Virus record (IMG/VR): IMGVR_UViG_3300037502_002424
Location: 1-37,259 of that record
Length of the DNA stretch: 37,259 nt
Direction: 5' to 3' (one strand)
Source: a virus
This document shows, in pieces, positions 21,520 to 33,597 of the stretch (positions are counted from its first letter, which is position 1; each line of letters opens with the position of its first letter). A program made the position numbers and the translations under genes. The notes below the pieces were generated by a model. It did not search any database and had not been told where the DNA came from. It saw only the letters and a program-made list of their open reading frames with translations.

Positions 21520-21723
21520 ATGCACGTCGACCCCGTCTACATCCGCCTCGTCGCCTACGTCCTGTCCACCCTGCTCGCCATGATTCCAGCCTCGTGGGCT
21601 GGCTGGGTCAGCTATGACGCCGCCACCCAGATGCTGCAGGTGAGCGTGCCCGGCCTCGCCACGGCCATCACTGGCGGCCTTGCCTCGGCCCTCGCCGTCT
21701 TCCGGGTCTGGGGCACCAAGTAA
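21520..21723 (+). CDS. second small holin-like membrane protein
   Basis: A 67-residue protein with GGAGAACCCCG before its ATG. Two hydrophobic segments are seen: about 8-32 (RLVAYVLSTLLAMIPASWAGWV) and 45-64 (LATAITGGLASALAVFRVW). This resembles small two-helix phage holins, placed after the lysozyme. The 3' end is overrun on the other strand by the C-terminal readthrough of a broken transposase gene, which suggests the insertion ended just after this gene. Confidence 0.65.
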   Translation: MHVDPVYIRLVAYVLSTLLAMIPASWAGWVSYDAATQMLQVSVPGLATAITGGLASALAVFRVWGTK

Positions 21724-21734
21724 CCGCCCCCGCC

Positions 21735-22169
21735 CGCGCCCTCTTTGCCGCCGACATAGGTTTCGTCACACTCGACAATCCCGGCCAGTTTGGTCGGATC
21801 ATTACCGCAAGCTTCCCGGAGGCGTTGCAGCATAAACCACGCGGTTTTTTGGGTGACGCCGATCTGCTTGGCCAGTTGCAGGCTGCTAATACCCTTTCGG
21901 GCCGTGACCAGCAGATACATGGCGTAAAGCCATTTGTGCAGCGGCACTTTGGACCGCTCAAAGATCGTGCCCGTGCGGACCGTGAAATCGGTCAGGCAGG
22001 CGTTGCAACGGTAAAAGCCGTCCTTGCGGGCATGGATGCGCTTAACCTCGTTGCAGGCCGGGCAGATGATCCCATTGGGCCACCGCTTTTGCTCAAAGTA
22101 GGTCCGGGCGCTTTCGGCGTCCGGGAACATCTGGAACAACTCAAACGTGCTGATCGTGGATTTGGACAT
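21735..22169 (-). pseudogene. IS1595-family transposase, C-terminally truncated
   Basis: The N-terminal half of an IS1595-type transposase: MSKSTISTFELFQMFPDAES, then a zinc ribbon with CPACNEVKRIHARKDGFYRCNAC, the conserved TGTIFERSKVPLHKWLYAMYL block, and the first catalytic acidic motif ECDETYVGGKE. Right after GGKE the reading continues into phage DNA (GAGGGG and beyond), so the remaining catalytic residues (second Asp and H/N) are absent. Only about 140 of roughly 300 residues remain. The left break is near 21735. The start (22169) lies three bases after a co-directional ParB-like gene, suggesting they travelled together. Not functional as a transposase. Confidence 0.8.
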
Positions 22170-22920: not shown

Positions 22921-24012
22921 CTAATTCAAAGACTTGCTTTCCTGAGTTGGAAATGAGTTGGAAATATCTGTTCCTGATACGGTCTTCACGAGGTCTGCGC
23001 TGGCCGAGTAGCGGCGCGCCTCGCTGGCCGTTTCATGTCCCAGAATCGCCATCCGTTTATCGGCAGCGGCGCCATTCTCCTGGAACACAGCCGCACGATG
23101 TTTGCGCAGCCCGTGGGCAGTCTTTCCCTTCAACCCTGCCTCGCGGCATGCGGCGGCAAACCATTGGCTCGCGGCCTTCACGGACCGGGGCGCCCCATCC
23201 GCGGTGACGAGATAGGTCATGTGGCGCGGTTGCGCGGACACGCACATGGCAAGGTGGTCATCATGCTCGAACCATGCCGGCGACGTTGCTGCGGTCATCG
23301 GGCAGACGGCCGCGCTTCCTGACTTCTGCCGCGTGTAGCGAAGCCATCCGTCTCTCACCATGCCCGGGCCGACATTGCAGGCGTCAACGATCGACGCGGC
23401 CGTCCGGTGGATCAGCTCGAAGGCCATGCGCTGGGGCGTGTCATGCGGCCACCGATCGCGGAATGCCGCGACATCCTCACGGGTCCACGGGGTATGTCCC
23501 GTGCTCTTCGCGCCCACCCGCTTGACGATCGGTGCGGCAGGGTCGAACTCCAAAAGGGCCGCTTCCTGAAACCCCCACCGGCAGAGGGCCTTCCATGCGC
23601 GCAGCCTGTTGTTCGCCGGGTGAGGCTTGAGCTTCGACAGGTCGGCCATGATTACCCGGGTGTCGAGCGTGTTCGCCCTGCCTTCCCCCCAGACCAGCCG
23701 GATGTGCTCAAGCCCGCGCCGCATGTAACCTCGCGTCGACGGGGCGAGGTTCTGGTAGGCGGCTGAGGCAAGGAAGGCCACGACAAGGGCACCGACAGTG
23801 CCGGCGGTGGGGCGGCGGTCGAGGGGCTTTGTCGCTCCCGTCGCGGCGATCCATGCGGCCAGAAACTCAGGGTGACCCTTCGGCCTGTCGGGCATGGGCA
23901 AGGGCTTCTTCCCCGGCAGACGCAGGTAGAAGCGCGGGTTACCCGAGGGCCACCGCCCCGATTGGGACAGGCCCTTCAATCTGACTCCATTCGCCGGAGA
24001 ATTTCTTGGCAT
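22921..24012 (-). CDS. int: tyrosine-type phage integrase, last gene of the leftward operon
   Basis: A 363-residue tyrosine recombinase that would join phage attP to the host attB. The N-terminal part (about 20-60: GRWPSGNPRFYLRLPGKKPLPMP) is the typical alphaproteobacterial-phage start; the core-binding domain lies at about 70-160 and the catalytic domain at about 170-345. Visible catalytic residues are Lys230 (YTRQKSG), His300 and Arg303 (HGLRKHR), His326 (ILGHE) and Tyr335 (ARRYS). The first Arg of the usual TGxR box is not there: the region reads RTAASIVDACNVGPG, with Ser207 at the expected place. Activity may be reduced, or Arg203 may substitute. Overlaps the upstream gene by 37 bases. 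Confidence 0.85.
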   Translation of the reverse strand: MPRNSPANGVRLKGLSQSGRWPSGNPRFYLRLPGKKPLPMPDRPKGHPEFLAAWIAATGATKPLDRRPTAGTVGALVVAFLASAAYQNLAPSTRGYMRRGLEHIRLVWGEGRANTLDTRVIMADLSKLKPHPANNRLRAWKALCRWGFQEAALLEFDPAAPIVKRVGAKSTGHTPWTREDVAAFRDRWPHDTPQRMAFELIHRTAASIVDACNVGPGMVRDGWLRYTRQKSGSAAVCPMTAATSPAWFEHDDHLAMCVSAQPRHMTYLVTADGAPRSVKAASQWFAAACREAGLKGKTAHGLRKHRAAVFQENGAAADKRMAILGHETASEARRYSASADLVKTVSGTDISNSFPTQESKSLN

Positions 24013-26818: not shown

Positions 26819-27172
26819 TCAGCACCCGCGTGCGGCGGCGGCGGACTGGATGGCATCGGCCTCGCCGCGCAGGCGGGCGAGTTCGGCGCTCTGGTCGCCG
26901 CCGGGGACGGCCAGCAAGGCAGGCCAGAGGATCAGCAGCCCGATCCCCATCAGGGCGGCATCGGCGTCGGCGTGGGCCTGCTGCTGGCCCGTGACCTCGG
27001 TCAGACGGGCGGTGAGGCGCGAGGCTTCGGCAGCGAGCGCGCGGCAGTCGAGCGACTGATACGCGACCGGGCTCACATAGGCGGGGGCGATGCTGGCGGG
27101 ATCGGCGGCGCAACCGGCAAGGGTAAGCGCGGCGACGGTGGCGAGGGCGGTGGCCCTGGCGAGGGTCTTCAT
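26819..27172 (-). CDS. phage-encoded lipoprotein, first gene of the leftward operon
   Basis: A 117-residue protein with a clear lipobox: MKTLARATALATVAALTLAGC, so Cys21 would be lipidated. The mature part has a helix with SLDCRALAAEASRLTARLTEVTGQQ, a hydrophobic segment (ALMGIGLLILWPALLAV), then a second helix SAELARLRGEADAIQSAAAARGC. I associate this pattern with small alphaproteobacterial lipoproteins. As the first gene behind the leftward promoter it is likely made early and possibly in lysogens. A role in superinfection exclusion or envelope change is inferred. Confidence 0.7.
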   Translation of the reverse strand: MKTLARATALATVAALTLAGCAADPASIAPAYVSPVAYQSLDCRALAAEASRLTARLTEVTGQQQAHADADAALMGIGLLILWPALLAVPGGDQSAELARLRGEADAIQSAAAARGC

Positions 27173-27214: not shown

Positions 27215-27243
27215 AAGTAAATGGAGATAAGTTCCACTGTCAA
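27215..27243 (-). promoter_or_regulatory. leftward early promoter (PL)
   Basis: On the minus strand TTGACA (27243-27238), 17-base spacer, then TTACTT (27220-27215) as a weak -10. It points to the lipoprotein gene and the leftward operon. An operator copy (27222-27236) fills the spacer, and a second lies just upstream of the -35. Confidence 0.6.
27222..27236. promoter_or_regulatory. operator O1 in PL
   Basis: TGGAGATAAGTTCCA, a dyad with TGGA/TCCA arms (7-base centre). It sits in the spacer of the leftward promoter, so binding would block RNA polymerase. Matches three further sites (27253, 27719, 27759). Confidence 0.7.
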
Positions 27244-27252
27244 TCCAGAAAG

Positions 27253-27267
27253 TGGAGAAAACTTCAA
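27253..27267. promoter_or_regulatory. operator O2 upstream of PL
   Basis: TGGAGAAAACTTCAA, one base from the consensus right arm. Its centre is 31 bp from O1, close to three helical turns, which would allow two repressor dimers on the same face. Confidence 0.65.
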
Positions 27268-27315
27268 TTGCCAGAACGAAGATAGAACGGCAGCCTTAAC
27301 CAAAATGGAGGGGCG

Positions 27316-27471
27316 ATGCCGTACAAATTTCGCGATATGATTGTTCTTACGCTTGCACGCATCACCGGCGCGCGCATTCGGACGGTCTACGACCTGGTCG
27401 AAAAGCTCGCCAAGTTAACTATGACCTTCTGGCGAAGCTCCAAGGGGAGGTCCGACAAGTCCCCTCGATAG
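27316..27471 (+). CDS. possible 51-residue protein opposing the repressor
   Basis: A plus-strand ORF from ATG 27316 with a good GGAGG site six bases upstream, running into the antisense 3' end of the repressor gene. The first 35 residues look natural (MPYKFRDMIVLTLARITGAR, then a helix IRTVYDLVEKLAKL), while the end is shadow-like. If translated it would be made from a rightward transcript between the two operator pairs. Support is limited. Confidence 0.35.
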   Translation: MPYKFRDMIVLTLARITGARIRTVYDLVEKLAKLTMTFWRSSKGRSDKSPR

Positions 27472-27698
27472 GTAAAGTCCAGTCCGACGCCGTAGAGTGT
27501 CGCAATAGCGATGGCTTTGGATATATCGAGACCTTCTTTCCCGGCCTCAACCTTGGTCTGTGTGCTTCGATTCAGTTCGATTGAGTCGGCAAACTGCGCC
27601 TTCGACAGCCCCAAGGCCTCACGCAGCGCAGTGATCCGAGGGCCAACCTTCTCGGGCCGCGACTCGACTGGGATTAAAGCTAAGAGCACCTTCGCCAT
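27387..27698 (-). CDS. XRE-family CI-type repressor
   Basis: A 103-residue helix-turn-helix protein. ATG 27698 is preferred since family members begin near MAKVLLALIP; ATG 27749 and 27734 are upstream alternatives that would place operator O3 inside the coding region. The HTH is PRITALREALGLSKAQFADSIELNRSTQTKVEAGKEGLDISKAIAIATLYGVGL, followed by the family-typical DFTYRGDLSDLPLELRQKV tail. No peptidase (LexA-like) domain, so induction is not by self-cleavage. It lies between the divergent promoters, as cI does. Probably binds O1-O4 and represses both directions and its own gene. Confidence 0.75.
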   Translation of the reverse strand: MAKVLLALIPVESRPEKVGPRITALREALGLSKAQFADSIELNRSTQTKVEAGKEGLDISKAIAIATLYGVGLDFTYRGDLSDLPLELRQKVIVNLASFSTRS

Positions 27699-27718
27699 AC
27701 CGCTGGAATGGCAGTCGT

Positions 27719-27733
27719 GGGAGAAAAGTTCCA
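27719..27733. promoter_or_regulatory. operator O3 upstream of the repressor start
   Basis: GGGAGAAAAGTTCCA, one base from the TGGA left arm. It lies 21 bases upstream of the repressor ATG 27698, so binding would control the repressor's own transcription. Confidence 0.65.
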
Positions 27734-27750
27734 TCGAAGTGAAATCCATC

Positions 27751-27780
27751 TTGACCAGTTGAGAAAACTTCCACTATCGG
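27751..27780 (+). promoter_or_regulatory. rightward early promoter (PR)
   Basis: Plus strand: TTGACC (27751-27756), 18-base spacer, TATCGG (27775-27780) as a weak -10. It lies nine bases before the Cro-like ATG 27789, so the transcript may be nearly leaderless. Operator O4 fills the spacer, mirroring PL. Confidence 0.5.
27759..27773. promoter_or_regulatory. operator O4 in PR
   Basis: TTGAGAAAACTTCCA, one base from consensus. Located in the spacer of the rightward promoter; centre-to-centre distance to O3 is 40 bp. Same architecture as O1/O2. Confidence 0.65.
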
Positions 27781-27788
27781 TACGGGTC

Positions 27789-28019
27789 ATGACCGAACCG
27801 AACACCATCACCGCGCTCATCGACCTTTGGCCCGCCCGCCGCGACCTTGCGGCGGACATCGGCGTGATGACCGATCGCGTGCATAAGTGGGCCAAGAGCA
27901 ACGCTATCCCCGCGCGGTTCCACCTGCGCGTGGTCAAGGCCGCCGAAGAGCGCGGTTTTCCCGTTACGGCAGAACTCATGGTCCGGCTGCATGACGCGCC
28001 GGGGGAGGAGGCGGCATGA
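27789..28019 (+). CDS. Cro-like helix-turn-helix protein
   Basis: A 76-residue protein directly downstream of PR, beginning almost at the promoter and without a clear ribosome site. NTITALIDLWPARRDLAADIGVMTDRVHKWAKSNAIPARFHLRVVKAAEERG is a small HTH of the carph-isopro/YdaS-like type found in phages at the cro position. It would bind the same or overlapping operators and favour lytic growth. First gene of the rightward operon. Confidence 0.75.
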   Translation: MTEPNTITALIDLWPARRDLAADIGVMTDRVHKWAKSNAIPARFHLRVVKAAEERGFPVTAELMVRLHDAPGEEAA

Positions 28020-28335: not shown

Positions 28336-28668
28336 ATGACCGCAGCCCCCCGTCATCCTTTCCCGTTCGCTTCATCAGTCCCTGCACAGGACATAGATGG
28401 AGCGATTATCGTGAAAAATCCTGCACATTCTGCAGACGACCACGCCGTGAAATCCCGCCGCTGGTTTGCGGCGATGCTGTGGAGTGCCTTCCCCTCGCGC
28501 TCGGAGCGCGACCTGGCTCAGAAAGCCTCCCGCGCGCTCGGCGTATCGGCCCGGCAGGTGACGCACTGGCTGCGCTGCGAGAATGACGCCTCGCTGCGCT
28601 ACGTCACTGCGGTCATGGCGATCGCCGGGGCCGAAATTGTCTTCGGTCTCGTGGAGGGCGCACGGTGA
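28336..28668 (+). CDS. early regulator with C-terminal helix-turn-helix
   Basis: A 110-residue protein starting at ATG 28336 after a G-rich AACGGGGGGCGGC leader. The C-terminal half reads RSERDLAQKASRALGVSARQVTHWLRCENDASLRYVTAVMAIAGAE, a clear HTH in which ALGVSARQVTHWLR is the recognition unit. The N-terminal 45 residues are disordered-looking. It may be a second regulator or a DNA-binding early protein, in the place of a CII-like activator. Ends GTGA with the next gene. Confidence 0.65.
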   Translation: MTAAPRHPFPFASSVPAQDIDGAIIVKNPAHSADDHAVKSRRWFAAMLWSAFPSRSERDLAQKASRALGVSARQVTHWLRCENDASLRYVTAVMAIAGAEIVFGLVEGAR

Positions 28669-32952: not shown

Positions 32953-33115
32953 TCGCGATCCGTTTCGAAGGCTGTCTGCCCGGGAGGTGCCGGACTCGGC
33001 GCGCTATTCGAATTCCGAACGGCGGATGGATGACGACGCGGCCCTGCGCGCGCAGCGCAAGGCGCAGGAGGCAGCGCTGCAGCGGGCGCAGCAAAAGGGG
33101 AAGTCCAGCCGATGA
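32942..33115 (+). CDS. 57-residue basic/charged protein
   Basis: A short gene from ATG 32942 overlapping the primase stop by 11 bases and the next ATG as ATGA. It is highly charged: PHDRDPFRRLSAREVPDSAR, then ERRMDDDAALRAQRKAQEAALQRAQQKGKSSR. A single helix of Ala, Gln and Arg suggests a nucleic-acid or protein-binding peptide. Function unknown. Confidence 0.6.
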   Translation: MPHDRDPFRRLSAREVPDSARYSNSERRMDDDAALRAQRKAQEAALQRAQQKGKSSR

Positions 33116-33597
33116 GCATCATCACAGCATGGGAGGCCACGTTCACCCGTCGCTGGCATCGACATGCCCATCTGGCCGACACGGTCGACCCGATCGCGGC
33201 GCATCAGGGCCGGGTGGCGCTGCTGGCGCTGATGCTTTTCCCGCGCGAGCACGCGCTGCACCGGGCGGCGATCATGCACGACATGGGCGAGGCGGCGGTC
33301 GGCGATGTGCCTAACCCGGTCAAGAATGCCAATCCGGACCTAAAGGCGGCGCTTGACAGGATCGAGGGCGAGGCCATGCAGAAGATGGGCCTGCCTGCGG
33401 TGTCGATGGATGACCGGGATCGCGACATGCTGCGCCTTTGCGACAAGCTCGACGCGATCCTCTGGGCGCGCCATCACAAGCCCGAGCTGATGGATGAGCC
33501 CGGCTGGAAGGGCGATCTGGCGGAGGTGCGCGGGCTAATGTGGCGCCTCGGCGTCGGCGACCGGATCAGCGGCATTCTCGGGTGGGCGCCACGATGA
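33112..33597 (+). CDS. HD-domain phosphohydrolase, YfbR-like
   Basis: A 161-residue HD-domain protein similar to E. coli YfbR (dNMP 5'-nucleotidase). Visible residues: RHAHLADTVDPIAAHQGRVALLALML (His of helix 2), MHDMGEAAVGDVPNPVK (the His-Asp pair and the E-GD-P-K motif, about 55-71), and LCDKLDAILWA (second Asp, about 108-118). The metal-binding set is complete, so it is probably active, hydrolysing a deoxynucleotide. In phages such enzymes shift nucleotide pools, for example by removing competing dNTPs. Lies between primase and helicase. Confidence 0.8.
   Translation: MSIITAWEATFTRRWHRHAHLADTVDPIAAHQGRVALLALMLFPREHALHRAAIMHDMGEAAVGDVPNPVKNANPDLKAALDRIEGEAMQKMGLPAVSMDDRDRDMLRLCDKLDAILWARHHKPELMDEPGWKGDLAEVRGLMWRLGVGDRISGILGWAPR

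Follow-up and report, generated by a model that had tools for sequence, protein, structure and literature searches.

Organization of the immunity region

The window, i.e. the whole stretch of DNA analyzed here, is an entire IMG/VR virus record of 37,259 bases in which an integrase, a terminase and a primase/D5 replication block are present. We read it as the record of a temperate phage and the region around its repressor gene as the immunity region of a temperate alphaproteobacterial phage, both as parts of an overall explanation that we consider fairly likely. The repressor gene is located on the minus strand (27387..27698; coding 27390-27698, stop codon to 27387) and encodes a protein of 103 aa. 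The first gene of the leftward (PL) operon (26819..27172, minus strand) encodes a lipoprotein-like protein assigned to phrog_13472, a group of unknown function. From here genes run leftward towards a tyrosine integrase (22921..24012, minus strand, PF00589), which is located downstream in this direction. The rightward operon starts with a gene for a small YdaS-like protein (27789..28019, plus strand), whose match to PF15943 (E=0.0025) is below the curated cut-off and which, judged from its sequence, is the probable Cro of this operon. ORFs resembling it and likewise divergent from the repressor gene were found in two related loci (L008, L010), and a comparable ORF in a third (L004). The rightward operon also contains a second ORF with weak resemblance to YdaS (28336-28668, plus strand, E=0.02), possibly a further early regulator.

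Two further genes were noticed during annotation. A partial IS1595-type transposase (21612-22169, minus strand), consisting of the zinc ribbon and the start of the DDE domain, appears truncated and sits between the morphogenesis/lysis-side genes and the integrase. An HD-domain protein matching YfbR-like 5'-deoxynucleotidase (33112-33594, plus strand) adjoins the primase and D5-type helicase genes.

The sequence-only reading of this DNA had described a repressor without cleavage domain. Pfam agrees, assigning helix-turn-helix families alone (HTH_3/HTH_31) and no Peptidase_S24. If this phage is induced by DNA damage, the damage must therefore work by another route. The AlphaFold model of the repressor, built from 23 homologues, has a pLDDT of 93. 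Its sequence profile matches the 434 and P22 repressors, PezA, antitoxins of the HipB/HigA type and controllers of the C.AhdI type, and a fold search returned generic XRE proteins only (434/lambda, HigA, SinR-like).

Operators and promoters

The four matching 15-mers that had been pointed out earlier are all present: TGGAGATAAGTTCCA at 27222, TGGAGAAAACTTCAA at 27253, GGGAGAAAAGTTCCA at 27719 and TTGAGAAAACTTCCA at 27759, with the repressor gene between the two pairs, as claimed. They are near-palindromic, of the type TGGA-N7-TCCA, and no other matches occur in the 37,259 bases of the window: 4 were found where 0.29 are expected, and none of 100 shuffled sequences reached 4. We built a position weight matrix (PWM) from the four 15-mers and their reverse complements and scanned the window. 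The four sites scored 16.8–20.8 bits, the next best place 11.8 bits. Dispersed stoperators of the type known from mycobacteriophage L5 were ruled out, as nothing beyond the immunity region comes close to the four sites in score.

On the left side OL1 (27222..27236, minus strand) lies in the spacer of the leftward promoter PL, and OL2 (27253..27267, minus strand) follows at a distance of 31 bp, just upstream of the PL -35 box. On the right side OR1 (27759..27773, plus strand) makes up the last 15 bp of the 17-bp spacer of the rightward promoter PR, and OR3 (27719..27733, minus strand) is located about 20 bp before the start of the repressor gene. Between them we found a degenerate site OR2, TGGATTTCACTTCGA (27734..27748, minus strand), 25 bp from OR1 and abutting OR3. 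It scores 7.1 bits, compared with a 99.9th-percentile threshold of 5.1. The count of two sites per side given in the sequence-only reading thus holds at OL only: OR has three positions with a spacing of 25 and 15 bp, and since the middle one has decayed in this phage only two had been counted. Stronger OR2 sites are present at the matching offset of 25–26 bp in related loci (L008, L049, L052, L055, L063, L065-L068). Taken by their sequence, the four sites are very probably binding sites for the small phage repressor, in the layout of the lambda switch.

Two of the operators had been placed inside the spacers of TTGAC-type promoters, and we arrive at such a placement for the sites at 27759 (PR) and 27222 (PL), judged from the -35 boxes and their spacing only. 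For PR the -35 box TTGACC (27751..27756, plus strand) is followed by a 17-bp spacer that ends in the operator and by a weak candidate -10 element, CTATCG at 27774-27779. For PL the box TTGACA (27238..27243, minus strand, read from 27243 to 27238) is followed by a spacer of 16–17 bp containing the operator and by the likewise weak candidate TTTACT at 27216-27221. Compared with E. coli -10 elements both hexamers are poor. A strict sigma-70 scan called neither PL nor PR, and no intrinsic terminators or strict sigma-70 promoters were called across the region.

Conservation of the layout in related phages and prophages

Single-sequence searches with the repressor against viral and genome collections gave no match, so seeds were taken from annotated phages. 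Annotated phages, IMG/VR, GTDB contigs and whole genomes supplied the homologous repressors; broad sampling of 385 genomes belonging to the class added no other strong match to the repressor. Each locus was searched for a motif of its own, defined as a 15-mer occurring twice on the upstream side of the gene and twice on its downstream side, with a weak prior for palindromy and a free spacing of 16–80 bp. The upstream region was narrowed, an earlier version of the search having been swamped by GC-rich coding repeats.

In 32 of 40 related loci the motif found in this way beat all 30 dinucleotide shuffles. The downstream pair was 29–32 bp apart in 28 of the 32 positive loci, compared with 7% in shuffles, and after collapsing at 70% identity this spacing was found in 24 of 27. 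A later locus set from another genome draw gave the same picture: 18 of the 25 loci analyzed were positive and 15 of these 18 had a spacing of 30 or 31 bp. Altogether, about 50 relatives with diverged operators carry sites on both sides of the repressor gene and an OL pair at a distance of about 30–31 bp, often beside a TTGAC box. Of 32 loci, 17 have TTGAC directly before the outer OL site and 11, as scored, have GTCAA directly after the outer site upstream. Operators of the types TGGA, GGGA, TCGA, TTCAC, TCCAC, CTCACA, CCGACA and TACGCA were observed among these relatives. Given this wide range of types at constant layout, the geometry outlives the sequence. The lambda-like plan proposed earlier, OL, repressor and OR with operators in divergent TTGAC promoters, is supported for the window, and its layout is kept in relatives whose operator sequences differ.

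When each locus was scanned with its own PWM, many loci had an OR1 at a position of about -75 relative to the start of the repressor gene. OR2 lies 25–26 bp inward of it, and OR3 often abuts OR2 (15 bp) or follows a further 25 bp on. The distance from the repressor stop to OL ranges from about 6 to 885 bp.

Half-sites were further compared with the recognition helix of the respective repressor. Helices with [ST]K[VI]E go mostly with TGGA or GGGA, GRIE goes with TCGA, and helices with N-N/Q-aromatic-E go mostly with nnCAC. A partial Mantel test in which the rest of the protein was removed gave a modest correlation over 32 loci with phylogeny partly controlled (r=0.23, p=0.001). This co-variation suggests that the repressor, and not a third party, is the reader of the sites.

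A convergent micro-ORF overlapping the 3' end of the repressor gene

The earlier description had overlooked a small convergent gene and a LexA box, both located between OL and the repressor gene. The gene is a micro-ORF of 51 aa (27316..27471, plus strand) lying between OL2 and the repressor gene, with an antisense overlap of 85 bp with the repressor 3' end. It is preceded by the Shine-Dalgarno sequence GGAGGGG (27307..27313, plus strand), and a purine-rich stretch is found before the start in the compared loci. As to its promoter, TTGCCA is present at 27268 without a good -10 element at 17 bp, and none was assigned.

A conserved ORF of 45–60 aa was found between OL and the repressor gene in relatives, running antisense into the repressor 3' end. 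Within the closer family 13 further loci have it at the matching place, in most cases overlapping the last 76–85 bp of the repressor gene, and further families have an ORF of related or other sequence there. Over the approximately 21 codons outside the repressor gene, the closer family shows a mean BLOSUM score per site of 1.14 in frame vs. -0.66 and -0.89 in the other frames, at a DNA identity of 43%. Identities at the three codon positions are 0.40, 0.58 and 0.30, i.e. third positions vary most. In a second family the corresponding values are 3.07 in frame vs. 0.25 and 0.67, with codon-position identities of 0.68, 0.79 and 0.38. We also formulated a rule according to which the ORF starts 60–110 bp past the repressor stop, has a Shine-Dalgarno sequence and stops inside the repressor gene. 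It was satisfied in 23 of 35 loci compared with 2.2 (maximum 6) in shuffled versions, a count that is not fully independent because the first loci had been picked by ORF similarity and the rule was fixed after viewing them. The same micro-ORFs appeared in the later locus set. By its in-frame conservation and the ORF rule the micro-ORF is coding.

No homologue, and no match to a known antirepressor, was found among the families of Pfam, PHROG and PADLOC. The structure model of the micro-protein is poor (pLDDT 66), with two helices at low confidence.

In a further repressor family (L084, L086, L090 and L091) convergent ORFs of a third type were observed (SGLPLD[FL]W...GRS...PKY); operators of the TACGCA type are present in L084, L086 and L091, and LexA boxes in L086, L090 and L091. 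Two Bradyrhizobium phages carry a longer convergent gene overlapping the repressor 3' end (L005 4212-4799 and L006 4176-4811, both minus strand). It is annotated as DUF4118 in L006, and a LexA box was not found at this gene in either phage.

LexA boxes between OL and the repressor gene

Published LexA sites of alphaproteobacteria include GTTC-N7-GTTC and GAAC-N7-GAAC (PMC3091678). An exact LexA (SOS) box of the form GAAC-N7-GAAC, GAACGAAGATAGAAC (27274..27288, plus strand), begins six bases after OL2 and precedes the micro-ORF. In the window alone exact boxes are not significantly enriched (4 vs. 1.05 expected), and the case therefore rests on the position of the box and on the relatives. In the compared loci 11 boxes fall into the 8.0 kb between the repressor stop and OL2, compared with 8 in the other 280 kb. 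The later locus set contained 8 boxes vs. 0.15 expected (P=5e-12). In the pooled data a box was found in 19 of 48 loci, compared with 0.33 (maximum 3) in shuffles of the same regions. Control motifs with gap lengths of 4–6 and 8–10 gave 0–1 boxes. Of eleven permuted tetramers used as a further control AACG scored 5 and the remaining ten 0–1.

Wherever both occur, the box is located upstream of the micro-ORF, at a distance of 13–95 bp by automatic choice of the start; some of the longer distances arise because that start was placed too far inside the ORF. An exact box is missing from more than half of the relatives. In one locus (L024) a box located 60–74 bp past the repressor stop precedes not the micro-ORF but an outward-facing gene for a probably exported protein of 159 aa. 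Judged by sequence, the box at 27274-27288 in front of the conserved convergent micro-ORF is probably the candidate trigger for induction of a phage whose repressor cannot be cut.

Comparison with known systems

In lambda, operators are located in divergent early promoters with the repressor gene between them, Cro is encoded first under PR, and OR has three positions. The window shares the operator arrangement, the central repressor gene and the three OR positions, and the gene first under its PR would be Cro-like, judged from the weak match to YdaS. It differs in its small repressor without cleavage domain, in the OR spacing of 25 and 15 bp, in the OL-OR distance of about 0.5 kb and in the convergent micro-ORF between OL and the repressor gene.

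A close likeness in plan was found in Rhizobium phage 16-3 (DQ500118), a phage of an alphaproteobacterium for which four operators are annotated, two on each side of the C gene. As in the window they lie in or against PL and PR and follow the order OL2/OL1, C, OR1/OR2, so the operator plan is already known in this bacterial class. In contrast to the 103-aa repressor without S24 found here, the C repressor has 263 aa and a Peptidase_S24 domain. The OL operators of 16-3 are 17 bp apart (30–31 bp here), 12–14 bp long and of another sequence type, and the window has an extra weak OR site. No match to the micro-ORF was recognised in the 16-3 immunity region. An annotated ORF of 77 aa, p068 (L069 1204-1437), runs antisense inside c near OL; it was rejected as a counterpart, with no clear similarity by eye.

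In Gifsy phages small LexA-controlled antirepressors inactivate small non-cleavable repressors, in the same way as Tum inactivates the repressor of phage 186 (PMC3121763). The window resembles 186 Tum, N15 AntC and Gifsy GfoA/GfhA/GftA (PMC3121763) in combining a repressor without cleavage with a small phage gene behind a LexA site, which is predicted here. The Gifsy antirepressor genes, however, are located outside the immunity region, whereas the gene described here is inside it and nested antisense in the repressor 3' end. In the Rac prophage the gene for YdaS is divergent from that of the RacR repressor, and YdaS has been argued to be Cro (PMC5917428). The arrangement resembles RacR-YdaS/YdaT in that a YdaS gene diverges from a repressor gene, the YdaS match in the window being weak.

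Our literature search, covering few subscription journals, found no description of a convergent LexA-controlled gene of this kind. Set against the plan of 16-3, the window differs in its minimal repressor, its near-fixed OL spacing of 30–31 bp and its third OR site, and most of all in the nested micro-ORF with its LexA box.

A possible mechanism of induction

Statistical analysis of the sequences supports the sites with their conserved geometry, the link between them and the repressor, the coding nature of the micro-ORF and the enrichment of LexA boxes. Beyond this we infer that the repressor binds the sites, that LexA represses the micro-ORF, that the micro-protein acts as an antirepressor, that the repressor controls its own gene and that the YdaS-like protein works as Cro, and combine these points as follows. 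The non-cleavable XRE repressor of 103 residues would occupy the near-palindromic 15-bp operators and shut PL via OL1 in the spacer and OL2 above the -35 box, and PR via OR1 in the spacer. It would probably control its own gene from OR2/OR3. The YdaS-type Cro would be expressed as the first gene under PR. LexA would sit on the GAAC-N7-GAAC box between OL2 and the 51-residue micro-ORF. Upon DNA damage LexA would be removed, so that the micro-ORF could be transcribed towards and into the repressor 3' end. Its product would most likely bind and inactivate the repressor, with the antisense transcript possibly helping. With no domain for RecA-dependent cleavage in the repressor, induction would be left to the SOS system of the host. 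We regard this explanation as a whole, an operator switch with a LexA-controlled micro-ORF antirepressor (possibly antisense) as its trigger, as reasonably probable.

Alternatively, the micro-ORF could be SOS-induced cargo, e.g. a damage-response protein, with another phage factor inactivating the repressor. The same spot does hold other cargo in relatives, namely the longer convergent protein of the Bradyrhizobium phages and the probably exported protein of L024. However, the micro-ORF stays beside small repressors in very diverged phages and is nested in the repressor gene, which makes a role as cargo rather unlikely.

Another possibility is that the SOS-controlled convergent transcript itself affects the repressor 3' end, either as RNA or through colliding transcription, and that the micro-protein is secondary. 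The lambda OOP RNA has a convergent position at a 3' end. It acts antisense on cII mRNA (PMC2327240), and a comparable effect of a transcript that covers the last 76–85 bp of the repressor gene in most closer-family relatives could add to that of an antirepressor. OOP differs in that it targets cII and not the repressor; the locus described here also encodes a conserved protein. The non-overlapping part of the micro-ORF is conserved as protein and has its own Shine-Dalgarno sequence, both needless for an antisense RNA, and we consider an effect mainly through the transcript unlikely.

The sequence-only reading had counted two sites per side and suggested that the repressor could loop the DNA between the OL and OR pairs, which are separated by about 500 bp. 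Looping as the main mode of action would agree with the presence of sites to either side of the gene and with the precedent of lambda. The three OR positions argue against it, as does the repressor-to-OL distance among relatives, which varies so widely that no fixed loop size is kept. In addition, a protein of 103 aa leaves little room for a separate domain for higher-order contacts. A switch working mainly in this way thus appears doubtful. That the sites serve the YdaS-like Cro or a host regulator instead of the 103-aa repressor is very improbable: a Cro would be expected to share operators with the repressor, but over 32 loci the operator co-varies with the recognition helix of the repressor, and in those relatives the sites flank its gene on both sides.

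Returning to the LexA-controlled micro-ORF as antirepressor, we lean, with somewhat more reserve than for the single phage, towards a widespread class of LexA-controlled micro-antirepressors of 45–60 aa in alphaproteobacterial prophages. They would be convergent with, and antisense within, the 3' ends of genes for small non-cleavable repressors, sharing DNA with them, and the SOS input would be wired between OL and the repressor gene. The near-fixed OL spacing of 30–31 bp could serve as a simple signature by which operators, and so immunity groups, are recognized in alphaproteobacterial prophages that have not been annotated. Phage repressors that are small and lack a cleavage domain are common; here sequence comparison points to a trigger by which such repressors may be switched off and which dozens of prophages in Rhodobacterales and relatives seem to share. 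If true, this would be a clear example of antagonistic phage genes located on opposite strands of one stretch of DNA.
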